In this document: piece by piece, positions 36,351-57,030 of the stretch
Numbering within the stretch: position 1 is the stretch's first letter
Layout: every line of letters begins with the position of its first letter
NCBI RefSeq assembly: GCF_024199945.1
Contig: NZ_JANADP010000001.1
Coordinates: 3,038,001-3,102,000 of the forward strand
Direction of reading: 5' to 3'
DNA: 64,000 nt
DNA from: Bradyrhizobium sp. CCGUVB4N
GTDB lineage: Bacteria > Pseudomonadota > Alphaproteobacteria > Rhizobiales > Xanthobacteraceae
Notes under the pieces: generated by a model
Seen by the model: only the letters and a program-made list of their open reading frames with translations
Told to the model about the DNA's origin: nothing
The model's database searches: none
Program-made: the position numbers and the translations under genes

Positions 36351-38084
36351 CTAGCGCGCGTGCAGCGCAGCGAGCAGGGCCACGACGGCGCAGGCCAGGA
36401 TCACGGTGGTGAGCTTCCAGAACAGCAGCGGATTGCGCTCGAGCAGGGGCGTCGTCCGTGTGCTGAGATAGGCCGGATTGGGGTTCCGGAGCTCATAGGC
36501 GAATTCGGACAGGTCCTCGTGGCGCTTGTTCGGATCGGGATGCAGCGCCTTTCGAAGCGCACCGTCGATCCAGACGGGGACGGCCCGGTCATCGTGGCCG
36601 GCCGGACGATATCGGAGTTTCCATGCGTCCGATCGCCCCCTGATGCGGGCGACCTGGGCGCCATAGGGCAGGCTGCCAGTCAGCATCTGGTAGCAGATGG
36701 TCGCCAGCGAGAACATGTCCGAGCGCGGCGAGCCGCCCTCGCCGAGAAAATATTCAGGCGCCGTGTACTGCACCGTGCCGAGGATTTCGGCATCAGCCGG
36801 ATTTGCCGCCGCCTCGACGATTCCGGCGACCTTGACTGCTCCGAAGTCGATGATCTTCGCGGTGCCGGTCTTGTCGATCAGGACGTTGTCGGGTCTCAGA
36901 TCCTGGTGCAGCATCTCCATGCGGTGGAAGGCGCGCAGGCCCGCAGCGATCTGGTCCACGATGTCGCGGACGGTCTCAAGATCGGGACGCGGATTGTCCA
37001 GCATCCATTGCCTCAGCGTCTGCCCCTCGATGAATTCGGTTGCGACATAGAGATAGTTGCGCCGCTTGGACCGCGAGCGCGGCTTCAGGACGTGGGGGCT
37101 GTCGATCCTGCGCGCGATCCACTCCTCCATCAGGAAACGCTTCAGATAGCCCGGATCGTCGCGAAGAGCGATCGAGGGGATCTTCAATGCGACCATCTCT
37201 TCGGTCTCGGTGTCGACCGCAAGATAGATGTGGCTCCGGCTGCTCGCGTGCACCTCCCGGATGATTCTGTAGCCGTCGAACAACGCTCTCGGCTCCGGGA
37301 GTGGGGGGAGTGGCAGTTCGTGTGTGCCGTCGAAAAAGTCGGATGTCGCGGTCTGCGGCAACTCGTCGATGCGCAGGATCTGGACTGTGATGTTGTCGTC
37401 GCTGCCGCGCCGGTAAGCCTCCTCGGCGATGGCTTGGGCTGCTGCATCGAGATCGGCGGCGTGCGCGGCGAGCGTACCGGTGATGAAGCGATGGTCGACG
37501 AACTCGTAGGCGCCATCGGTTGCCAGCAGGAAGATGTCGCCTTGCGCGACTTGCAGCGCCTGGTAGTCGATCTCGATCTGCGGATTGATCCCGAGCGCGC
37601 GGCCAAGATAAGTCTGCTCCGGCGACACGATGATCCGGTGATCCTCGGTGAGCTGTTCGAGGGCCTTGCCGGCGACGCGGTAAATCCGGCAATCGCCGAC
37701 GTGGAAGATGTGGGCCATGGTCGATTTGACGACCATGGCCGTGAAGGTGCAGACGTAACCCTTGTCGCGATCATAAGCGTATCGGCTGCGCCGCGTTTCC
37801 GCGTGCAGCCAAGAGTTCGTCGCTTCCAGAACGCGACGCGCCGACGTTTTCACCGTCCAGGATTCGGAAGTGCAGTAATAGTCGGTCAGGAAGCTTTTGA
37901 CCGCCGACTCGCTCGCGACCTGGCTCACGGCGCTGCTGGAGATGCCGTCGGCGAGGACGACGGCGATGCCCTTCAGGCTCAGCAGCGGCTCGGCCGGGAC
38001 GAGCGCGCCGTGAAAGTCCTGGTTGACCGGCTTGCGTCCCTTGTCGGAGTGCTGCCCGATCGAAATTCGCAAGCCTCGGCCCAT
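36351..38084 (-). CDS. bifunctional PP2C phosphatase / Ser-Thr protein kinase
   Basis: A 577-residue fusion (start ATG 38084; TTG/GTG just upstream are possible). Residues about 1-245 form a PP2C phosphatase (NQDFHGA, VLADGISS, FHVGDCRIYR, LLATDGAYEF, GSDDNITV, all metal-site motifs). Residues about 265-520 form a kinase: VALKIPS (Lys), HQDLRPDN (catalytic Asp; HRD Arg is Gln and the usual Lys is Arg), DFGAVK. One span at about 550-572 anchors the C-terminus. The same fusion occurs beside nitrate-assimilation genes in Pseudomonas (PA1782 type). Here it follows the nitrite/formate channel, likely one operon, so it may sense or gate nitrogen-oxide uptake. Confidence 0.9.
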   Translation of the reverse strand: MGRGLRISIGQHSDKGRKPVNQDFHGALVPAEPLLSLKGIAVVLADGISSSAVSQVASESAVKSFLTDYYCTSESWTVKTSARRVLEATNSWLHAETRRSRYAYDRDKGYVCTFTAMVVKSTMAHIFHVGDCRIYRVAGKALEQLTEDHRIIVSPEQTYLGRALGINPQIEIDYQALQVAQGDIFLLATDGAYEFVDHRFITGTLAAHAADLDAAAQAIAEEAYRRGSDDNITVQILRIDELPQTATSDFFDGTHELPLPPLPEPRALFDGYRIIREVHASSRSHIYLAVDTETEEMVALKIPSIALRDDPGYLKRFLMEEWIARRIDSPHVLKPRSRSKRRNYLYVATEFIEGQTLRQWMLDNPRPDLETVRDIVDQIAAGLRAFHRMEMLHQDLRPDNVLIDKTGTAKIIDFGAVKVAGIVEAAANPADAEILGTVQYTAPEYFLGEGGSPRSDMFSLATICYQMLTGSLPYGAQVARIRGRSDAWKLRYRPAGHDDRAVPVWIDGALRKALHPDPNKRHEDLSEFAYELRNPNPAYLSTRTTPLLERNPLLFWKLTTVILACAVVALLAALHAR

Positions 38085-38163
38085 CCTCGCCACCAATGCA
38101 AAGGGAGCTTCACCTTAGCAGGCAAAGCTCCCCCTCAGACAAGGCTCCCTCGTCGATGCCCAA

Positions 38164-39003
38164 TCAGGCCGCAGCGCGGGTCGACGCGTTGGCTGCCGGC
38201 TGGCGCTTCGGCTTCGTCAGCACGTGCGTCGTGTAGAGCGTCAGTCCGGTGAAGGCGAGGCCGCCGACCAGGTTGCCCAGCACGGTCGGGATCTCGTTCC
38301 AGATGAAATAGTCCATGATCGAGAATTTGGCGTGGAGCATCAGCCCCGACGGGAACAGGAACATGTTCACGACCGAATGCTCGAACACCATGTAGAAGAA
38401 CACCAGGATCGGCATCCACATCGCGATCACCTTGCCCGGGACCGTGGTGGAGATCATTGCGCCGACGACGCCGGTCGAGACCATCCAGTTGCAGAGCATG
38501 CCGCGAATGAACAGCGTCGCCATGCCGGCCGCACCGTGCGCCGCGTAACCCAGCGTACGGCCCTCACCGATGTTTCCGATGGCTGCGCCGACCTTGTCGG
38601 GATCCTGGGTGAAACCGAACGTCGTGACGAAGGCCATCATGAAGGCCACCGTGAGCGCCCCGCCGAAATTGCCGATGAACACGAGACCCCAATTGCGCAA
38701 CACGCCGCCGAGCGTGACGCCGGGCCGCTTGTCGATCAGCGCGAGCGGGGCGAGCACGAAGACGCCGGTCAACAGGTCGAAGCCCAGCAGATAGAGCATC
38801 GAGAATCCGACCGGGAACAGCAGGGCGCCGACGATCGGCTGGCCGGTATTGACGTTGATGGTGACGGCGAACCAGGCGGCGAGCGCCAGGATGGCGCCGG
38901 CCATATAGGCGCGGATGACTGTATCCCGGGTGGACATGAAGATCTTGGATTCGCCTGCATCCACCATCTTGGTGACGAATTCCGAAGGCGCGAGATACGA
39001 CAT
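38164..39003 (-). CDS. formate/nitrite transporter (FNT) family channel
   Basis: A 279-residue FNT pentameric channel protein with six membrane spans, the N-terminal helix YLAPSEFVTKMVDAG, the loop signature GNFGGAL, and GMLCNWMVSTGVV, the usual FNT hallmark. It is expected to move nitrite (or formate) across the inner membrane. ATG 39003 with AGGGAGC upstream; the longer frame to 39120 is in the leader. Transcribed leftward from a sigma-54-like promoter, with the PP2C-kinase downstream. Opposite it is narK, so uptake of nitrate and of nitrite or its export may be controlled together. Confidence 0.92.
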   Translation of the reverse strand: MSYLAPSEFVTKMVDAGESKIFMSTRDTVIRAYMAGAILALAAWFAVTINVNTGQPIVGALLFPVGFSMLYLLGFDLLTGVFVLAPLALIDKRPGVTLGGVLRNWGLVFIGNFGGALTVAFMMAFVTTFGFTQDPDKVGAAIGNIGEGRTLGYAAHGAAGMATLFIRGMLCNWMVSTGVVGAMISTTVPGKVIAMWMPILVFFYMVFEHSVVNMFLFPSGLMLHAKFSIMDYFIWNEIPTVLGNLVGGLAFTGLTLYTTHVLTKPKRQPAANASTRAAA

Positions 39004-39209
39004 TGCAGCTCCCTTGCTCCTGTGATCGAGCCGGCCTGTGCCGGATCGACGGTTCTGGCAAACCAGTGAGCTTTCGCGTCCCGTAGAACGGTGTGCGTAC
39101 CGGTGAAGGACCATGCGCAAAGGGACAGCGTCACGATGACCGCGCGTTAGCGGACCAGCGAACAGGCTTCCCAGTGGCCTTCGGTGGCTCGACGCTCCGG
39201 CTCACTGTC

Positions 39210-39223
39210 AGTCATCGTTGACT
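39210..39223 (-). promoter_or_regulatory. ANTAR-type hexaloop hairpin in the leader of the FNT operon
   Basis: On the minus strand: AGTC, hexaloop AACGAT, GACT. A 4-5 bp stem with A at loop position 1 and G at position 4, the ANTAR-RNA pattern. It begins within a few bases of the transcription start predicted from the sigma-54-like promoter at 39236-39252. Confidence 0.45.
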
Positions 39224-39235
39224 AGGCAGAATGGA

Positions 39236-39252
39236 AGCAATCGATGTGCCAG
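39236..39252 (-). promoter_or_regulatory. sigma-54-like promoter for the FNT-kinase operon
   Basis: On the minus strand CTGGCACATCGATTGC: TGGCAC, N5, TTGC with GG-N10-GC spacing, a full -24/-12 match. The start is expected near 39225, about 220 bp before the ATG at 39003. Confidence 0.65.
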
Positions 39253-39382
39253 ACGATCTGGCCTGACAGGCTGCCTTTCGAAGGAGATTTGCCCGCTCTG
39301 GACGTGAGATAGCCTCCAGGCGCAGGTCGCATCCGGCATCTGTCGAGATCGGCTGCCGCGAAAACGGGCTCATGCCCAACGC

Positions 39383-39397
39383 TTGTGCGACGCACAA
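39383..39397. promoter_or_regulatory. perfect 15-bp palindrome TTGTGCG-A-CGCACAA
   Basis: Arms of seven bases around a single central A, in the middle of the divergent nitrate control region. Too compact for an NtrC site of the usual TGCACC-N5-GGTGCA type; perhaps the site of an unlinked regulator. Confidence 0.5.
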
Positions 39398-39460
39398 TCA
39401 ACGGGCGAATCCGCATTCAAGAAATGAGCGGTTCGCAAGTTTTTGATGCAATTATGGGCG

Positions 39461-39477
39461 TGATTAAATTTTAATCA
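39461..39477. promoter_or_regulatory. perfect 17-bp AT-rich palindrome TGATTAAA-T-TTTAATCA
   Basis: Eight-base arms around one T, about 60 bp upstream of the narK -24/-12 element, where an enhancer-binding protein or IHF would sit. Not an FNR/FixK box (spacing differs). Confidence 0.5.
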
Positions 39478-39524
39478 TATCGTCCAAGCCATTTGAATCG
39501 CTGGTGTTTTTACTACAGACCGAT

Positions 39525-39541
39525 TTGGCACGGAGCTTGAA
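39525..39541 (+). promoter_or_regulatory. sigma-54-like promoter for the narK operon
   Basis: TTGGCACGGAGCTTGAA: TGGCACG, N4, TTGA, with GG and the -12 GA 10 bases apart. The only deviation is A for C in the final GC. The start is predicted near 39551, followed at once by the hexaloop hairpin at 39553. Confidence 0.6.
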
Positions 39542-39552
39542 TTAGAGCTTTC

Positions 39553-39570
39553 GACGCCATCGACGCCGTC
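39553..39570 (+). promoter_or_regulatory. ANTAR-type hexaloop hairpin in the narK leader
   Basis: GACGCC, hexaloop ATCGAC, GCCGTC: five pairs with one C-C mismatch, and A at loop position 1 and G at 4. A following segment GTCAACGA is shared with the FNT leader. Second hexaloop of the usual pair not found. Confidence 0.45.
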
Positions 39571-39591
39571 AACGAGCATCATTCAAATCGT

Positions 39592-39684
39592 GACACCGCC
39601 GAAAACGGGGGCTTCCCCGAGCGTGCATCTTTGCGCCTCCGCGTCCGTCGGTGTCCCGCTTCCTAGCGAAAGGGACTTTTTCCA
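39592..39684 (+). promoter_or_regulatory. attenuator-like fold overlapping the narK ribosome-binding site
   Basis: GACACCG (39592-39598) is fully complementary to CGGTGTC (39649-39655), enclosing a CGGGG-GCTT-CCCCG hairpin. The alternative fold uses GTCCC (39653-39657) with GGGAC (39672... 39676 is the end; arm 39672-39676), followed by five T, as a terminator hairpin. The two folds share GTC and exclude each other. The SD AAAGGGA is inside the 3' arm. Confidence 0.55.
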
Positions 39685-41067
39685 ATGAAGGAAGGCAATC
39701 CGACGTGGATTTCTGACTGGCGCCCCGAAGATGAGGCGTTCTGGAATGCGGGCGGCAAGGCCGTCGCCCGGCGTAACCTGATCTGGTCGATCGTGGCCGA
39801 GCATATCGGCTTTTCCGTCTGGCTGATCTGGAGCATCGTTGCGACCAAGCTGCCGCAGGCGGGGTTCCACTATTCGACCGACGAATTGTTCCAGCTCGTG
39901 GCCGTCCCCGGCCTGATCGGCGCTTTGATGCGCTTCCCCTATACGTTCGCGGTGACGACCTTCGGCGGTCGCAACTGGACCATCTTCAGCGCGGCGATCC
40001 TGTTTATCCCGACACTGTCGCTCGCCTATTTCGTGAGCCAGCCCGACACACCGTTCTGGCTGATGCTGCTGATCGCGTCGACCGCGGGCCTCGGCGGCGG
40101 CAATTTCGCCTCCAGCATGACCAACATCTCGTTCTTCTTCCCCGACCGGATGAAGGGCTCGGCGCTGGGTCTCAATGCCGCCGGCGGCAATATCGGCGTC
40201 TCCAGCGTGCAGCTCCTGACCCCGATCCTGATGACGCTCGGTGTCATCAATCTGTTCCAGGCAACGCCGGTCGGCGGCGTGTACTTGCAGAATGCCGGCT
40301 TGATGTGGGTGCTGCCGATCGCGATCGCGGTGTTCGGGGCGGTGTTCTTCATGAACAACCTCACCTCGGCCAAGTCGTCGATCAAGAACCAGCTTGCGAT
40401 CGTCAAGCGCAAGCACACCTGGATCATGGCTTTCATCTACATCGGAACGTTCGGCTCCTTCATCGGCTACTCGGCGGCGTTCCCGCTGCTGATCAAGACG
40501 CAGTTTCCGACGGTGACGATCTCGATTGCCTTCCTCGGTCCTCTGCTCGGTTCGCTCTCGCGTCCGTTCGGCGGCTGGCTCGCCGACAAGGTCGGCGGCT
40601 CCATCATCACGTTCTGGAATTTCCTCGCGATGGCGGCTGCGACGATCGGTGTGCTCTACTTCGTCGGGCAGAAGGATTTCACCGGCTTCCTGGCGATGTT
40701 CCTGATCCTGTTCCTGACGACGGGCATCGGCAACGGCTCCACCTACCGCATGATCCCTTCGATCTTCCGCGAGCAGAATTTGTTCAGGGTGCGCGGCAAG
40801 GGCGACGCGGCGCGTGCGGATGCGTTGAAGACGGCGAGCGTCGAGAGTGGCGCAGCAGTCGGCTTCATCGGCGCGGTCGGTGCCGTCGGCGGTTATCTGA
40901 TCCCGAGCAGCTTCGGCAAGTCGATCGCTGCGACCGGTGGTCCGTCGCTCGCGCTCGCCATCTTCCTCGCGTTCTACGCCGTCTGCCTCGGTTTGACCTG
41001 GTGGTTCTACCTGCGTCGCAGCCCGCAGGCTGAAGGCGCGCCAAGCCTCGCCGAAGCGCGAGTCTGA
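39685..41067 (+). CDS. narK: nitrate/nitrite transporter NarK
   Basis: A 460-residue MFS transporter of the nitrate/nitrite porter family with 12 spans. The nitrate signature in span 5, GGNFASSMTNISFFFPDRMKG, and its repeat in span 11, GIGNGSTYRMIPSIF, are both present. It imports nitrate (and may exchange nitrite). First gene of narK-bjgb-flp-nasC, known in B. diazoefficiens as a nitrate assimilation and NO-removal operon. ATG 39685 follows AAAGGGA, which lies inside a terminator-like hairpin. Confidence 0.95.
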   Translation: MKEGNPTWISDWRPEDEAFWNAGGKAVARRNLIWSIVAEHIGFSVWLIWSIVATKLPQAGFHYSTDELFQLVAVPGLIGALMRFPYTFAVTTFGGRNWTIFSAAILFIPTLSLAYFVSQPDTPFWLMLLIASTAGLGGGNFASSMTNISFFFPDRMKGSALGLNAAGGNIGVSSVQLLTPILMTLGVINLFQATPVGGVYLQNAGLMWVLPIAIAVFGAVFFMNNLTSAKSSIKNQLAIVKRKHTWIMAFIYIGTFGSFIGYSAAFPLLIKTQFPTVTISIAFLGPLLGSLSRPFGGWLADKVGGSIITFWNFLAMAAATIGVLYFVGQKDFTGFLAMFLILFLTTGIGNGSTYRMIPSIFREQNLFRVRGKGDAARADALKTASVESGAAVGFIGAVGAVGGYLIPSSFGKSIAATGGPSLALAIFLAFYAVCLGLTWWFYLRRSPQAEGAPSLAEARV

Positions 41068-41105: not shown

Positions 41106-41189
41106 AAGGTCTCTCTGATGACGTTTGACCCATGAACTTTTTCCGCAACGGCGCGGACAAAGGCAGACCGAAACAGACAGGAGAACATC

Positions 41190-41618
41190 ATGACGCCCCA
41201 GCAGATCGCCCTCGTGCAGCAAAGCTTTTCCAAGGTCGCGCCGATTTCAGAAGCAGCCGCCGTGCTGTTCTACGACCGCTTGTTCGATGTGGCGCCGTCC
41301 GTGCGTGCGATGTTTCCCGAGGACATGACCGAACAGCGCAAGAGGCTGATGGGCATGCTCGCCGCTGTCGTCTCTGGCCTGTCGAACCTCGAAACGATTC
41401 TTCCCGCGGCGTCCGCGCTCGCCAAGCGCCACGTCGCCTACGGCGCCAAGGCCGAGCACTATCCCGTGGTCGGCGCGACCCTGCTGTGGACCCTGGAGAA
41501 GGGGCTCGGCGAGGCCTGGACGCCCGAACTCGCCACTGCCTGGACCGACGCCTATGGCGTGCTGTCCGGCTACATGATTTCCGAAGCCTACGGCCCGCAG
41601 GCGCAGGCCGCCGAATAG
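41190..41618 (+). CDS. bjgb: single-domain haemoglobin Bjgb
   Basis: A 142-residue globin (FHb/SDgb type). Proximal haem His is His81 in LAKRHVAYG; the distal part lies in the N-terminal FYDRLF helix (FxxxLF). It has no reductase domain, so it relies on a partner (Flp, next gene). In B. diazoefficiens Bjgb removes nitric oxide formed during nitrate assimilation. ATG 41190 with AGGAG upstream; 10 bp to flp. Confidence 0.92.
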   Translation: MTPQQIALVQQSFSKVAPISEAAAVLFYDRLFDVAPSVRAMFPEDMTEQRKRLMGMLAAVVSGLSNLETILPAASALAKRHVAYGAKAEHYPVVGATLLWTLEKGLGEAWTPELATAWTDAYGVLSGYMISEAYGPQAQAAE

Positions 41619-41628
41619 GAGATGCCTT

Positions 41629-42846
41629 GTGAGTGAACCGCTCGTCATCGTCGGAAACGGTATGGCGGCAGCTCGTCTGGTCGACGAGCTCGCCAAGACC
41701 GCGCTCGGCCGCTATGCGGTCGCTGTGATCGGCGAAGAGCCGCGGCTCGCTTACAATCGCGTCTTGCTCTCTTCGGTGCTGGCCGGCGAGACCGGCTCGC
41801 ACGAGATCGAGCTCCGTCCGGCAGACTGGTGGCGCCATCGCGGCGTCACCGTGCGCTACGGCTATCGTGTCACCGAGATCGACACCGGCCGCCGCGAGCT
41901 GAAGATCGCCGGCGAAGAGAGCATGGAATATTCAAAGCTCGTGCTCGCCACCGGATCGACGCCGCTGCGCCTCAACGTCCCGGGCGCCGATCTCGCCGGC
42001 GTGCACACGTTTCGCGACACCCGCGATGTCGACCTTCTGTTGACGCTGGCGGCCGCCAAAAAGCGCGTCGTCGTGGTCGGCGGCGGCCTGCTCGGGCTCG
42101 AGGCAGCCTACGGCCTTGCCAAGGCCGGCGCGCCCGTGACACTGCTGCATCTGATGGACCGGCTGATGGAGCGCCAGCTCGATGGGCCTGCTGCCGATCT
42201 GCTCAAGACGCTGGTCGAGCGCAAGGGCATTCGCATCCTGCTCAATGCCTCGACCGCGCGCATCCATGGCGAGCGCCACGTCGAAGCCGTCGAGCTTGCC
42301 GACGGCAGCCGCATCGAGGCCGATGCCGTGATCTTCGCCGCCGGGATCAGGCCGAACATCGCGCTGGCCAAGGAGGCCGGCATCGCCGTCAATCGCGGCA
42401 TCGTCGTCAATGACGAAATGCAGACCGCATCGCCCGACATCTACGCGCTCGGCGAATGCGCCGAGCATCGCGGCACTTGTTACGGCCTGGTCGAGCCGGC
42501 CTACGAGCAGGCCCGCGTGCTGGCGAGGCATCTCGGTGGCCGCCCAGCGGCCTATCAGGGCAGCGTGGTCTCGACCAATCTGAAAGTCTCCGGCGTCAGC
42601 GTTTTCTCCGCCGGCGACTTCATGGGCGGCGAGGGCAGCGAGAGCCTCGTGCTGACCGACCGCCGGCGCGGCACCTACAAGAAGCTCGTGATCGCTGACG
42701 GATGCCTGACCGGTGCCGTGCTGATCGGCGATACCGCCGATGCGCTTTGGTATCTCGAGCTGATCCGCACCCGCGAGAAGATCGCTGGAATCCGCGCCGA
42801 CATGATGTTCGGCCGCGCGCTCGCGCTTCCCTCCAAAGCGGCGTGA
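41629..42846 (+). CDS. flp: NAD(P)/FAD-dependent oxidoreductase, NirB-N-terminal-like (Flp)
   Basis: A 405-residue pyridine-nucleotide-disulphide-oxidoreductase-fold flavoprotein. FAD motif at the N-terminus (VIVGNGMAAARLVDELAK), the NADH motif VVVGGGLLGLEAAYGLA, and the FAD-binding ASPDIYALGECAEH. It resembles the flavin part of nitrite reductase NirB and rubredoxin reductases; in the nitrate operon it should deliver electrons from NADH to NasC and Bjgb. GTG start at 41629 after AGGAGA; 15 bp before nasC. Confidence 0.92.
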   Translation: MSEPLVIVGNGMAAARLVDELAKTALGRYAVAVIGEEPRLAYNRVLLSSVLAGETGSHEIELRPADWWRHRGVTVRYGYRVTEIDTGRRELKIAGEESMEYSKLVLATGSTPLRLNVPGADLAGVHTFRDTRDVDLLLTLAAAKKRVVVVGGGLLGLEAAYGLAKAGAPVTLLHLMDRLMERQLDGPAADLLKTLVERKGIRILLNASTARIHGERHVEAVELADGSRIEADAVIFAAGIRPNIALAKEAGIAVNRGIVVNDEMQTASPDIYALGECAEHRGTCYGLVEPAYEQARVLARHLGGRPAAYQGSVVSTNLKVSGVSVFSAGDFMGGEGSESLVLTDRRRGTYKKLVIADGCLTGAVLIGDTADALWYLELIRTREKIAGIRADMMFGRALALPSKAA

Positions 42847-42861: not shown

Positions 42862-45567
42862 ATGACGGCGATCGACCCGAATCTCCGCACCACCAAGACG
42901 ACATGCCCCTATTGCGGCGTCGGCTGCGGCGTACTCGCAACGCCCGACGGCGCGGGAGGCGCGGCGATCGCCGGCGATCCCGATCATCCCGCCAATTTCG
43001 GCCGGCTCTGCTCGAAGGGCTCTGCGCTCGGCGAGACCGTCGGGCTTGAAAGTCGTTTGCTTTATCCGATGATCCGCTGCAAGGGCGTGCTGGAGCGCGT
43101 TGCCTGGAGCGATGCGCTCGATCACGTCGCCCATCGTATGCAGCACATCGTCGCGCGCGACGGCGCCGATGCAGTCGCGTTCTATCTTTCGGGCCAGCTC
43201 CTCACTGAGGATTATTACGTCGCCAACAAGCTGATGAAGGGCTTTGTCGGCACGGCGAACGTCGACACCAATTCGCGGCTCTGCATGTCGTCCTCGGTCG
43301 CCGGCCACCGCCGTGCCTTCGGCGCCGACACCGTGCCCGGTTGCTATGAGGATCTCGACCAGGCCGATCTGCTCGTCTTCGTCGGCTCGAACGCGGCCTG
43401 GTGCCATCCGGTGCTGTTCCAGCGCATGCTGAAGAACCGGCAGGAGCGCGGCGCGCGGATGATCGTGATCGATCCACGCCGCACGGATACCGCGAGCGAT
43501 GTCGATCTGTTCCTCGGACTCAAGCCCGGCACCGATACCGCGTTGTTCTCGGGCCTGTTCGTCCATCTCGCCGACAGCGGCGCACTGGATCAGGCGTACA
43601 TCGCTCAGAACACGTCAGGCTTTGATGATGCGCTGGCGCGCGCGCGCAACATCGCCGGCAGCGTCACCGCGACCGCACTGGCGACCGGCCTCTCCGAGCA
43701 GGACGTCGCCGCCTTCTTCAAGATGTTCGGTGATACCGAGCGGGTCGTCACGCTCTATTCGCAGGGCGTGAACCAGTCGGCGCAGGGCACCGACAAGGTT
43801 AACGCGATCCTGAACTGCCATCTCGCGACGGGCCGTATCGGCAAGCTCGGTGCCTCGCCGTTCTCGCTCACCGGCCAGCCCAACGCGATGGGCGGCCGCG
43901 AGGTCGGCGGCCTCGCCAACCAGCTCGCCGCGCACATGAACTTCACGCCGCCCGACATCGATCGCGTCAGGCGGTTCTGGAAGGCGCCGCGCATCGCCAC
44001 CCATGAGGGGCTGAAGGCGGTGCAGCTGTTCGAGGCGATCAACCGCGGCGAGGTCAAGGCGCTCTGGGTGATGGGAACCAACCCCGCCGTGTCGCTGCCC
44101 GATGCCGACTTCGTGCGCGAGGCGCTGAAGAAGCTCGAGCTGTTCGTCGTGTCCGAAAACGTGCTCTCCAACGACACGGTCGATGCGGGCCCGCATGTGC
44201 TGCTGCCGGCGCTGGCCTGGGGCGAGAAGTCGGGCACGGTGACCAATTCCGAGCGCCGCATCTCGCGCCAGCGTTCGTTCCTCCCCGCACCCGGCGAGGC
44301 GCGCCCCGATTGGTGGATCCTCAGCGAAACCGCCAAACGCCTCGGTTTCGGCGACAGCTTCAACTACAAATCCGCCGCCGAGATCTTTCGCGAGCATGCC
44401 GCGCTGTCCGCGTTCGAGAACGACGGTAGCCGCGATTTCGACATCGGTGCGTTGACGTCGCTGTCCGACGAGGATTTCGACGCCCTGAAGCCCGTGCAAT
44501 GGCCGGCGCGCGAGGGCGAGCCGTCGGGCGAGCGTTTCTTCGCGCGAGGCGGCTTCTTCACCAATGACGGCAAGGGCCGCTTCGTCGCACCGGAAGTGCC
44601 GGCGCTCCGCAGCGAGACCGGACCGTCGCGTCCCCTGCGGCTCAACACCGGACGCATCCGCGACCAGTGGCACACCATGACGCGCACGGGGTTGAGCAAG
44701 CGGCTCGGCGCGCATCTGCCCGAGCCATTCGTCGAGATTCATCCCGATGACGCCAACAAATACGGCATCGTCCATGACGGCTATGCCCGCATCACCACCG
44801 ATTACGGCCAGTGCATTCTAAAGGCCGTGGTCAGCGAGCGACAGCAGCGCGGTGCGCTGTTCGCGCCGATCCACTGGAGCGCCATGAATGCCTCGCACGG
44901 CCGCGTCGGTGCGCTGGTCGCGCCGTTCACGGATCCGTTCTCCGGGCAGCCGGAGTCGAAGGCGACGCCGGCCGCGATCGCGCCCTATGAGTACGTCTTC
45001 CGCGGTTTCGCGCTGTCGCGGAAGCAACTCGATCTGCCGCCCAACCTGCTGTGGACTCGCGCGACTGTCGCCGGCGGCTTCGGCTATCTCTTCGCCGACA
45101 ATGCGGACCTCGCGCGCTGGCCCGCCTGGCTCGACGGGCTCGCCGGCGAGGACGTCGCCGACTACCGCGATTTCGGCGGTGGCGTCTATCGCGCGGCCTC
45201 GTTCACGGGTGATCGCATCGAGACCTGTCTGTTCGTCGGTCCCGCGCATGATGCCGGCGATTGGGAGGTGGTGAAGAGCGTGTTCGCGGCCGATCGCGTC
45301 ACCGATGATCAGCGCCGCATGCTGCTGTCAGGCAAGTCCAGCGAAGGCGCTGCTGCAACCGGCCCGATCGTCTGCGCCTGCTTCGGCGTCGGCCGTGGCA
45401 CCATCTGCGACACCATCGCGGCAGGCGCACGCACGGCCGCCGAGATCGGCGCCAAGCTCAAGGCCGGTACCAATTGCGGTTCCTGCATCCCCGAGCTGAA
45501 GCGGCTCATTGCGACGACCGAGGTGGCGCCGGCGAAGCAAGCCAAGCTCGCGGGCGCGGCCGGGTAG
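42862..45567 (+). CDS. nasC: assimilatory nitrate reductase catalytic subunit NasC
   Basis: A 901-residue molybdopterin oxidoreductase reducing nitrate to nitrite in the cytoplasm. The [4Fe-4S] Cys are Cys15, Cys18, Cys22 and Cys50. The Mo-bis-MGD part follows (NTNSRLCMSSSV, GTDTALFSGLF, the GQPNAMGGREVGG motif), then the dinucleotide-binding C-domain (RLNTGRIRDQWHTMTRTG). The last 60 residues are a BFD-like [2Fe-2S] domain (VCACFGVGRGTICD, NCGSC). Last gene of the operon. Ferredoxin-type nitrite reductase is not in the window. Confidence 0.95.
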   Translation: MTAIDPNLRTTKTTCPYCGVGCGVLATPDGAGGAAIAGDPDHPANFGRLCSKGSALGETVGLESRLLYPMIRCKGVLERVAWSDALDHVAHRMQHIVARDGADAVAFYLSGQLLTEDYYVANKLMKGFVGTANVDTNSRLCMSSSVAGHRRAFGADTVPGCYEDLDQADLLVFVGSNAAWCHPVLFQRMLKNRQERGARMIVIDPRRTDTASDVDLFLGLKPGTDTALFSGLFVHLADSGALDQAYIAQNTSGFDDALARARNIAGSVTATALATGLSEQDVAAFFKMFGDTERVVTLYSQGVNQSAQGTDKVNAILNCHLATGRIGKLGASPFSLTGQPNAMGGREVGGLANQLAAHMNFTPPDIDRVRRFWKAPRIATHEGLKAVQLFEAINRGEVKALWVMGTNPAVSLPDADFVREALKKLELFVVSENVLSNDTVDAGPHVLLPALAWGEKSGTVTNSERRISRQRSFLPAPGEARPDWWILSETAKRLGFGDSFNYKSAAEIFREHAALSAFENDGSRDFDIGALTSLSDEDFDALKPVQWPAREGEPSGERFFARGGFFTNDGKGRFVAPEVPALRSETGPSRPLRLNTGRIRDQWHTMTRTGLSKRLGAHLPEPFVEIHPDDANKYGIVHDGYARITTDYGQCILKAVVSERQQRGALFAPIHWSAMNASHGRVGALVAPFTDPFSGQPESKATPAAIAPYEYVFRGFALSRKQLDLPPNLLWTRATVAGGFGYLFADNADLARWPAWLDGLAGEDVADYRDFGGGVYRAASFTGDRIETCLFVGPAHDAGDWEVVKSVFAADRVTDDQRRMLLSGKSSEGAAATGPIVCACFGVGRGTICDTIAAGARTAAEIGAKLKAGTNCGSCIPELKRLIATTEVAPAKQAKLAGAAG

Positions 45568-55599: not shown

Positions 55600-57030
55600 A
55601 TGGTCAATCGCATGCAATTCTACATCGACGGCGCCTGGGTCGATCCCGCCGTCAAGAAGTCCACCCCGGTCGTCAATCCGGCGACGGAAGAGGCGATGTA
55701 CGAGATTGCGCTCGGCTCCAAGGCTGACGTGGACAAGGCGGTTGCCGCCGCCAAGCGCGCTTTTGCAACTTTCTCCCAGACCAGCCGTGAAGAGCGCGTC
55801 GCGCTGCTCACGAAAGTCATCGAGGTCTACAAGGGCCGTCTCAAGGAGATCGGGGCTTCCGTCTCCGACGAAATGGGCGCGCCGCTGCCGATGGCCGAAA
55901 AGCTCCAGGCCGGCGCCGGTCTCGGCCATCTCATGACCACGCTCGACGTGCTCAAGAACTATCATTTCGAGGAGCCGATCGGCACCGCCATGGTGCTGCG
56001 CGAGCCCGTTGGCGTGGTCGGCATGATCACCCCCTGGAACTGGCCGCTCAACCAGATCGCCTGCAAGGTCGCGCCCGCGCTTGCCGCCGGCTGCACCATG
56101 ATCCTGAAGCCGTCGGAATTCACGCCGACCTCGGCTTTGATCTTTGCGGAAATCTTGCATGAAGCCGGTGTGCCGAAGGGCGTGTTCAACCTCGTCAACG
56201 GCCTCGGCCCCGAGGTCGGTGCCGCCATGAGCGAGCACCCCGACATCGACATGATCTCCTTCACCGGCTCGACCCGCGCCGGCATCGACGTTGCCAAGCG
56301 CGCGGCGCCGACCGTGAAGCGCGTCAGCCAGGAGCTCGGCGGCAAGTCGCCGAACGTCATTCTCGAAGGCGCCGACCTCACGAAGGCGGTGACCGGCGGC
56401 GTGATGCACATGTTCAACAACTCCGGCCAGTCCTGCAATGCGCCCTCGCGCATGATCGTGCCGTTGTCGAAGATGAAGGAAGTCGCCGCGATCGCGAAGG
56501 CCGTCGCCGACAAGACCAAGGCGGGCGACCCGCGCGCCGAAGGCACCACCATCGGCCCGGTCGTCAACCGCGGCCAGTGGGACAAGATCCAGGCGTTGAT
56601 CAAGAAGGGTATCGACGAGGGCGCAACGCTCGTCGCCGGTGGCCCGGGCCTGCCCGAAGGCGTCAACAAGGGCTTCTATGTCCGCCCGACCATCTTCGCC
56701 GACGTCACCCCCGAGATGACGATTGCGCGCGAAGAAATCTTCGGACCGGTGCTGACCATCCTCGGCGCCAAGGACGAAGCCGAAGCCGTGCACATCGCCA
56801 ACGACACGCCGTACGGTCTCGCTGGTTACGTCTCCGGCGCTTCGGTCGAGGACGCCAAGCGTGTCGGCCGTCAGATCCGCGCCGGCAACGTCAACCTGCA
56901 GGGCGTGCCCAACGATCGCACCGCGCCGTTCGGCGGCTACAAGCAGTCGGGCAACGGCCGCGAGTGGGGCAAGTACGGCCTCGAGGACTTCCTCGAAGTG
57001 AAGGCGGTTGCGGGCTTCAACGCCGCGTAA
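55600..57030 (+). CDS. aldehyde dehydrogenase family protein
   Basis: A 476-residue NAD(P)-dependent aldehyde dehydrogenase. General base Glu in QELGGKSPN (about residue 245), nucleophile Cys in GQSCNAPSR (about 278; the usual G-Q-x-C), cofactor motif FTGSTRAG, N-terminal PWNWPLNQ. ATG 55600 after AAGAGG. A strong Rho-independent terminator follows, so this is a single-gene unit. Confidence 0.95.
   Translation: MVNRMQFYIDGAWVDPAVKKSTPVVNPATEEAMYEIALGSKADVDKAVAAAKRAFATFSQTSREERVALLTKVIEVYKGRLKEIGASVSDEMGAPLPMAEKLQAGAGLGHLMTTLDVLKNYHFEEPIGTAMVLREPVGVVGMITPWNWPLNQIACKVAPALAAGCTMILKPSEFTPTSALIFAEILHEAGVPKGVFNLVNGLGPEVGAAMSEHPDIDMISFTGSTRAGIDVAKRAAPTVKRVSQELGGKSPNVILEGADLTKAVTGGVMHMFNNSGQSCNAPSRMIVPLSKMKEVAAIAKAVADKTKAGDPRAEGTTIGPVVNRGQWDKIQALIKKGIDEGATLVAGGPGLPEGVNKGFYVRPTIFADVTPEMTIAREEIFGPVLTILGAKDEAEAVHIANDTPYGLAGYVSGASVEDAKRVGRQIRAGNVNLQGVPNDRTAPFGGYKQSGNGREWGKYGLEDFLEVKAVAGFNAA

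Follow-up and report, generated by a model that had tools for sequence, protein, structure and literature searches.

The intergenic region at 39004-39684 of the window (the whole 64 kb stretch of DNA that was analyzed, from a 9.2 Mb genome of Bradyrhizobium type) separates two divergent gene groups, FNT-kinase on the minus strand and narK-bjgb-flp-nasC on the plus strand. It probably carries two divergent sigma-54 promoters, each followed by a 5' hexaloop that would be read by NasT, with nitrate-dependent read-through. The presence of sigma-54 promoters and ANTAR-type hexaloops at both operons is strongly supported by sequence comparison. Joint control of the narK and FNT operons by NasT is likely, since the box and hexaloop occur genus-wide at both operons and the genome encodes a single ANTAR protein. 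This protein is NasT, with ANTAR and receiver domains, encoded 1.9 Mb from the window next to an NMT1_2-type protein that we take to be NasS. The FNT and kinase genes are presumably co-transcribed.

The analysis establishes the sequences, their positions, their conservation and the predicted competing folds; binding by NasT, the direction in which control works, the activator and the termination step are inferred. In the proposed mechanism sigma-54 would start both transcripts, and an ANTAR-type hexaloop predicted to lie 2 nt into the RNA would be bound by NasT. Without nitrate, NasS would hold NasT and the leaders would fold so that expression stops. In the narK leader the competing fold would be a terminator-like hairpin of which the 3' arm is common to the second hexaloop (P2) and the Shine-Dalgarno sequence; in the FNT leader a downstream segment (anti-P1) could unwind the first hexaloop (P1). 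With nitrate, NasT would be freed and hold the hexaloops, and both narK-bjgb-flp-nasC and FNT-kinase would be transcribed past their leaders. The palindrome situated between the two promoters is probably the binding site of an activator, either NtrC or another enhancer-binding protein.

Table 1. Genes, promoters and predicted RNA elements of the region (window coordinates)
Feature	Position	Strand	Remarks
PP2C phosphatase + Ser/Thr kinase gene	36351-38096	-	Pfam PP2C_2, Pkinase; start codon uncertain; second gene of presumed FNT operon
FNT (formate/nitrite transporter) gene	38164-39003	-	Pfam Form_Nir_trans, E 7.5e-61
Anti-P1	39130-39142	-	Complementary to FNT P1 hairpin; duplex test and predicted fold of 39129-39225
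FNT P2 hexaloop	39177-39188	-	GCC-ACCGAA-GGC; A1, G4; three Watson-Crick pairs
FNT P1 hexaloop	39209-39224	-	TAGTC-AACGAT-GACTG; begins at predicted +2; outermost pair T.G
FNT sigma-54 box	39237-39251	-	TGGCACATCGATTGC; TGGCAC-N5-TTGC; full match
Palindrome	39383-39397		TTGTGCGACGCACAA; distance to FNT box 131 bp, to narK box 128 bp; candidate site for an activator
narK sigma-54 box	39526-39540	+	TGGCACGGAGCTTGA; TGGCAC-N5-TTGA; A for C at -12
narK P1 hexaloop	39553-39570	+	GACGCC-ATCGAC-GCCGTC; begins at predicted +2; internal C.C mismatch
Terminator-like hairpin	39653-39681	+	GTCCC...GGGAC, then five T; 3' arm holds Shine-Dalgarno, overlaps P2
narK P2 hexaloop	39660-39675	+	TTCCT-AGCGAA-AGGGA; five pairs (three Watson-Crick, one G.U, outer pair); overlaps Shine-Dalgarno
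Possible third narK hexaloop (P3)	39679-39694	+	TTTCC-AATGAA-GGAAG; start codon in loop
narK (MFS nitrate/nitrite transporter)	39685-41067	+	NCBIfam NarU/NarK models scored under cut-off
Hexaloop between narK and bjgb	41142-41157	+	TCCGC-AACGGC-GCGGA; A1/G4
bjgb, single-domain globin	41190-41618	+	Pfam Globin
flp, flavoprotein	41629-42846	+	Pfam
nasC, molybdopterin nitrate reductase	42862-45567	+	Pfam

Promoters and first hexaloops

For comparison of the upstream regions 146 genomes of the genus were searched for narK. A close narK was found in 81, and the upstream regions of 70 were compared; a close FNT was present in about 116 genus genomes, and 70 leaders were used. The counts leave out 11 narK genomes, about 46 FNT genomes and the FNT and narK paralogues of ca. 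35-52% identity. FNT counts given over 69 refer to the 70-leader set without L130.

The preliminary description of the region had placed two outward -24/-12 boxes and two A1/G4 hexaloops, AACGAT and ATCGAC, near the predicted starts. Both pairs of elements were confirmed, including the full match for FNT and the single mismatch for narK, and both P1 hairpins start from predicted +2. The box was present in 70/70 FNT leaders; in 23 the first T of TGGCA was replaced by C or G, and in one (L102) TTGC was replaced by CTGC. All 70 narK upstream regions contained TGGCA[CT]-N5-TTGA with an invariant A at -12. The GC at -13/-12 of the sigma-54 consensus TGGCAC-N5-TTGC is present in the FNT box, whereas the narK box has GA. 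Because GA was also found before a P-II (glnB/glnK) gene and the FNT2-nirA operon, both of the window's genome, and before nrtA of some relatives, it appears to be an ordinary variant in this setting, and it may be a genus-wide variant of the sigma-54 element. Upstream of the P-II (glnB/glnK) gene of locus L160 the sequence is TGGCACGGCATTTGA.

The FNT P1 sequence GTC-AA[CT]GA[ACT]-GAC occurred in 70/70 leaders. Its five loop types varied at positions 3 and 6, with A1 and G4 fixed. The GTC of the stem lay at +2 to +4 in 63 leaders and at +8/+9 in seven. The fourth pair varied by clade (A-T, G-C or G-T), and among the 39 distinct sequences there were 20 in which it did not form. In the window's own FNT loop a pair between the first A and the last T is possible, and the predicted fold forms it, leaving a loop of four bases, a point against the NasT-hexaloop reading; loops ending in C or A, as found in other clades, cannot close by first-last pairing.

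A narK P1 with A1 and G4 was found in 70/70 leaders by a search pattern that demanded these two bases, as did the pattern used for nrtA, and no narK leader failed it. Ten loop types were present, varying at positions 2, 3, 5 and 6 (for example ATCGTT in L064). The hairpin started at predicted +2 or +3 in 69 leaders and at +5 in one. Its stem had a constant C.C or C.A mismatch and invariant paired positions.

In both leaders the P1 stems were kept mostly by identity with little covariation, and RNAalifold consensus folds of the leaders gave little covariation support. Comparison of aligned leaders across the genus, as suggested in the preliminary description, bore out the box and P1 but hardly covarying stems. 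An Rfam scan at the gathering threshold and at E<=5 gave no credible family match. Among 25 FNT loci from other genera of the family, the box and P1 were kept in seven; 18 had no P1, of which eight encode FNT proteins only 45-48% identical. The scarce covariation, the Rfam result and the 18 loci without P1 weigh against the proposed NasT switch. In its favor are the occurrence of box and P1 in every narK and FNT leader compared, the constancy of loop positions 1 and 4, and the near-fixed distance from the -12 element.

The chance of finding such combinations was estimated in the window, which contained seven -24/-12 boxes on both strands. An A1/G4 hexaloop 12-24 nt after the box was accepted with at least three pairs and no mismatch (first rule) or at least four pairs and one mismatch (second rule). 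Sites were found at FNT by both rules, at narK by the second only and at 56280 by the first only. In 60 first-order Markov sequences of 64 kb each the mean numbers were 0.15 and 0.2 with a maximum of 2. The pairing of box and hexaloop is rare by chance, and this, together with the one NasT encoded beside a NasS-type protein, supports the main reading. A genome search for additional sigma-54 boxes with GTCAAYGA found the FNT leader alone. The narK P1 sequence was rejected as a genome-wide probe since it gave 190 forward and 186 reverse matches at <=2 mismatches and is useless alone.

The preliminary description also mentioned a sequence shared by both leaders, GTCAACGA. Among the 12 aligned narK leaders from the clade of the window, only L002 and L005 kept it, and it was dropped as a shared leader signal because it is not conserved in narK.

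The palindrome and its probable activator

The palindrome TTGTGCGNCGCACAA was found within two mismatches in 70/70 narK regions, at -142/-141 or at -120 to -117 from the box. In the FNT upstream regions it occurred with <=2 mismatches in 42/69 (at 107-185 bp) and with three mismatches in one, and it was absent in 26/69. These 26 regions are all from genomes without a close narK, so the palindrome seems tied to nitrate transport rather than to FNT; a copy is present, however, in six FNT regions whose genomes have no close narK. The palindrome-less FNT leaders (L091, L092, L107-L126, L131-L133 and L146) still have the sigma-54 box and P1. Genome-wide the palindrome occurred with <=1 mismatch at five places, against two for a reversed control pattern. 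Two other exact copies had no recognizable nitrogen gene nearby, as judged by eye from the ORFs. A function as general nitrogen-control site was not supported by these counts and neighbors.

The activator acting at the palindrome could be another regulator of nitrate transport instead of NtrC, an alternative that we put forward tentatively. The sequence TTGTGCGNCGCACAA presumably does not match the NtrC consensus; the two exact copies away from recognizable nitrogen genes and the restriction of copy-less FNT regions to genomes without a close narK point the same way. However, the near-fixed place, 117-185 bp upstream of the boxes, is as would be expected of an enhancer, the six copies in FNT regions of narK-less genomes argue against a link to nitrate transport, and a 2017 paper reportedly describes these genes as NtrC-dependent in B. 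diazoefficiens. The preliminary description had proposed that both operons are induced jointly by NtrC and antiterminated by NasT. The NasT part is likely for the reasons given above, whereas NtrC is a candidate only, the palindrome being apparently unlike its consensus, the other exact genome copies lying near no recognizable nitrogen gene and 26/69 FNT regions having no copy.

Predicted competing folds in the FNT and narK leaders

The earlier statement that each leader has one hexaloop was wrong, as a second A1/G4 hexaloop is present in both (narK P2 and FNT P2). The P1-P2 linkers are 20 nt (FNT) and 89 nt (narK). These exceed the 5-12 nt reported for eut leaders (PMC3369931), and a longer linker is reported to stop EutV antitermination in vitro (PMC8934654), which speaks against the main reading. 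The same report proposes a single hexaloop as the minimal ANTAR site (PMC8934654). The window's leaders resemble the EutV dual hexaloop in their A1/G4 loops and, for narK, in a second hexaloop that overlaps a terminator-like stem (PMC3369931, PMC8934654).

In the FNT leaders a [GA]CC-N6-GG[CT] hairpin occurred 22-27 nt after P1 in 62/70. The loop had A1/G4 in 33 of these; 24 kept G4 behind a different first base, and five had neither. A second A1/G4 hexaloop <=50 nt after P1 was present in 32/69 leaders, compared to 6% of shuffles, and absent in 37. No T-run was seen in the FNT leader.

The FNT switch may lie between P1 and anti-P1 and not involve P2, with NasT holding P1 or anti-P1 unwinding it and with a Rho-dependent or other non-intrinsic stop; we consider this rather unlikely. 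The complementarity is near-constant in position, ca. 65-80 nt downstream of P1, and <=5/100 shuffles were as good in 41/69 leaders (0/100 for the window's leader, L077). The best single-strand fold of the latter pairs P1 with anti-P1 (z -2.28, 1/200 shuffles as good), and in growing-transcript folding P1 was present up to 80 nt and lost at 95 nt. However, anti-P1 was weaker or absent in the other 28/69 leaders, which fail the shuffle test. In clades A and B the base facing position 6 of the P1 loop is complementary to it; in C and D it is mostly not, and in two clades it does not covary. In the seven P1-bearing relatives outside the genus, 2/200 shuffles were as good for L171 and L173, while the other five gave 10, 12, 69, 132 and 133 per 200. 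Such pairing was absent in narK leaders (0/69).

For the narK leader the preferred reading involves competition between P2 and the terminator-like hairpin, a predicted alternative that supports it. In 12/12 genomes of the window's clade P2 was conserved as TTCCT-A[GA][CT]GAA-AGGGA (L022 has CTCCT) and covered the Shine-Dalgarno sequence, whereas the full stem of the competing hairpin was present in 7/12. A generic terminator scan found none; the narK hairpin has a bulge. The incomplete stems, the empty scan and the FNT leader without a visible T-run count against termination as proposed. The possible P3, TTTCC-AATGA[AG]-GGAAG, was found in 10/12 genomes of the clade and may be due to chance. 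Outside this clade, CTGC-AnnGnn-GCAG occurred directly 5' of the Shine-Dalgarno sequence in 47/70 narK leaders. An A1/G4 hexaloop with >=4 Watson-Crick pairs in the last 75 nt was present in 57/70 narK leaders, against 2% of shuffles; these comprise 47 with CTGC-N6-GCAG and 10 with the start-codon hairpin of the window's clade, and 13 have none.

Since P2 contains the Shine-Dalgarno sequence and P3 has the start codon in its loop, NasT could block ribosomes or change mRNA stability, so that some or most of its action on the narK leader would be translational. We regard this as improbable. It would agree with the overlap of P2 with AAGGGA in 12/12 genomes, the AUG within P3 in 10/12 and the CTGC-AnnGnn-GCAG hairpin in the other clades. 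In a nasT mutant of denitrifying USDA 110, narK is reported to be up 4.86-fold and narK-bjgb-flp mRNA to rise (PMC6759348), which fits an effect on translation or stability and is at odds with the main reading. For Mycobacterium tuberculosis there is mention of stem-loops that cover ribosome-binding sites (PMC8934654). Against it, a transcriptional narK-lacZ fusion in B. japonicum is reported to require NasT for nitrate induction (PMC4724949), the conservation of P2 may be due in part to its Shine-Dalgarno sequence and to the close relatedness of the genomes, and P3 could be chance. A dual role, in which the 5' hexaloop licenses transcription and the hexaloops at the Shine-Dalgarno sequence and start codon limit translation or stability, appears slightly less probable still. 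If true, it would explain the rise of narK-bjgb-flp mRNA in the nasT mutant although narK-lacZ needs NasT in air, and would represent ANTAR control at a ribosome-binding site in a proteobacterium.

That the conserved elements are only DNA sites for sigma-54 and an activator, with incidental hairpins, is highly improbable. The scarce covariation of the P1 stems and the location of P1 in the initially transcribed region would agree with it, but the neighbors of loop positions 1 and 4 vary and these two do not, FNT and narK obey the same loop rule with different stems, and NasT dependence has been published for narK (PMC4724949).

Related systems and further genes with the same signature

The narK half of this system is known in outline, as NasT control is in print for B. 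japonicum (PMC4724949). The narK-bjgb-flp-nasC operon and NasT of Bradyrhizobium japonicum/diazoefficiens USDA 110 are the same as here (PMC4724949, PMC6759348), and NasT hairpins are stated to be predicted before narK and bjgb in that strain (PMC6759348). The dependence of narK-lacZ on NasT supports the main reading, and nirA-lacZ is also reported to be less induced without NasT (PMC4724949). In contrast to USDA 110, where nrtABC is described upstream of narK (PMC4724949), narK of the window directly faces FNT-kinase; FNT lies <=1.5 kb upstream of narK in 13/70 narK regions, the window included. The passages on the USDA 110 NasT operon contained no mention of an FNT leader (PMC4724949, PMC6759348). 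The FNT-kinase operon was not found as a NasT target in the literature searched by titles, abstract openings and passages, which is not proof of absence.

Two hairpins and NasT also characterize the nasA leader of Paracoccus denitrificans, like the leaders of the window (PMC5424462). They are reported to lie 137 and 91 bp before nasA, the first mattering most for induction (PMC5424462). The window differs in having a divergent pair with the hairpin at predicted +2. According to the same source an NtrC site is reported at nasT of Paracoccus, with none yet identified at nasA (PMC5424462). The Klebsiella oxytoca nasF leader with NasR, described in part by that source, combines general nitrogen control with nitrate-dependent antitermination as here, but NasR senses nitrate itself whereas NasT of the window's genome would act with NasS (PMC5424462). 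The present system is not of a new kind; it adds a second transporter to those with a known type of switch. New are the FNT-kinase half, the start of the hairpin at predicted +2, the wide spacing of the hexaloops, anti-P1 and the palindrome, together with the box and hexaloop before nrtA of relatives and before the FNT2-nirA operon. If the reading is correct, ANTAR hexaloop spacing can be wider than in the eut model.

In rpoN mutants of Bradyrhizobium DOA9 the genes nasA, nasD, nirA, nrtA, nrtB and fnt are reported as repressed (PMC13207237); for nrtA and fnt this is consistent with the sigma-54 promoters proposed here. The sigma-54 boxes listed for DOA9 nrtA and fnt in this 2026 study may not be the real ones, because related genomes (not DOA9 itself) have better matches further upstream (PMC13207237).

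The same signature precedes other genes, which further supports the main reading. In a relative, family searches gave the order FNT, nrtABC-type genes and narK (L148, 1810-9396). At this locus and 14 others a separate box (TTGA or TTGT) and the hexaloop GACGCC-A[TC][TC]GA[ACT]-GCCGTC precede the gene facing FNT; the gene was checked in L148 and taken as nrtA at the other 14 loci. The nrtA P1 loops were of four types with positions 1 and 4 constant. The FNT2-nirA operon of the window's genome has the box TGGCACACGTCTTGA and, further down, the hairpin CAGC-AACGAA-GCTG (read by eye). FNT-kinase and, by the same signature, nrtA of relatives would then join narK and nirA in one sigma-54 and NasT regulon, making nitrite movement and its kinase testable as nitrate-induced. 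In the window's genome nasT, the NasS-type gene, FNT2, nirA and a flavoprotein gene form a cluster (L147, 2389-8737). FNT2, located between nasT and nirA, is 45% identical to FNT.

The A1/G4 hexaloop between narK and bjgb was present with >=4 pairs in 18/30 genomes, with variation at loop positions 3, 5 and 6. Of the 12 genomes without it, at least two seem to have no bjgb (by eye). The conservation of this hexaloop, with a strong hairpin alongside, points to a second NasT site within the operon. The adjoining hairpin has the sequence CTCTCCCCGTACGCGGGGAAAG.
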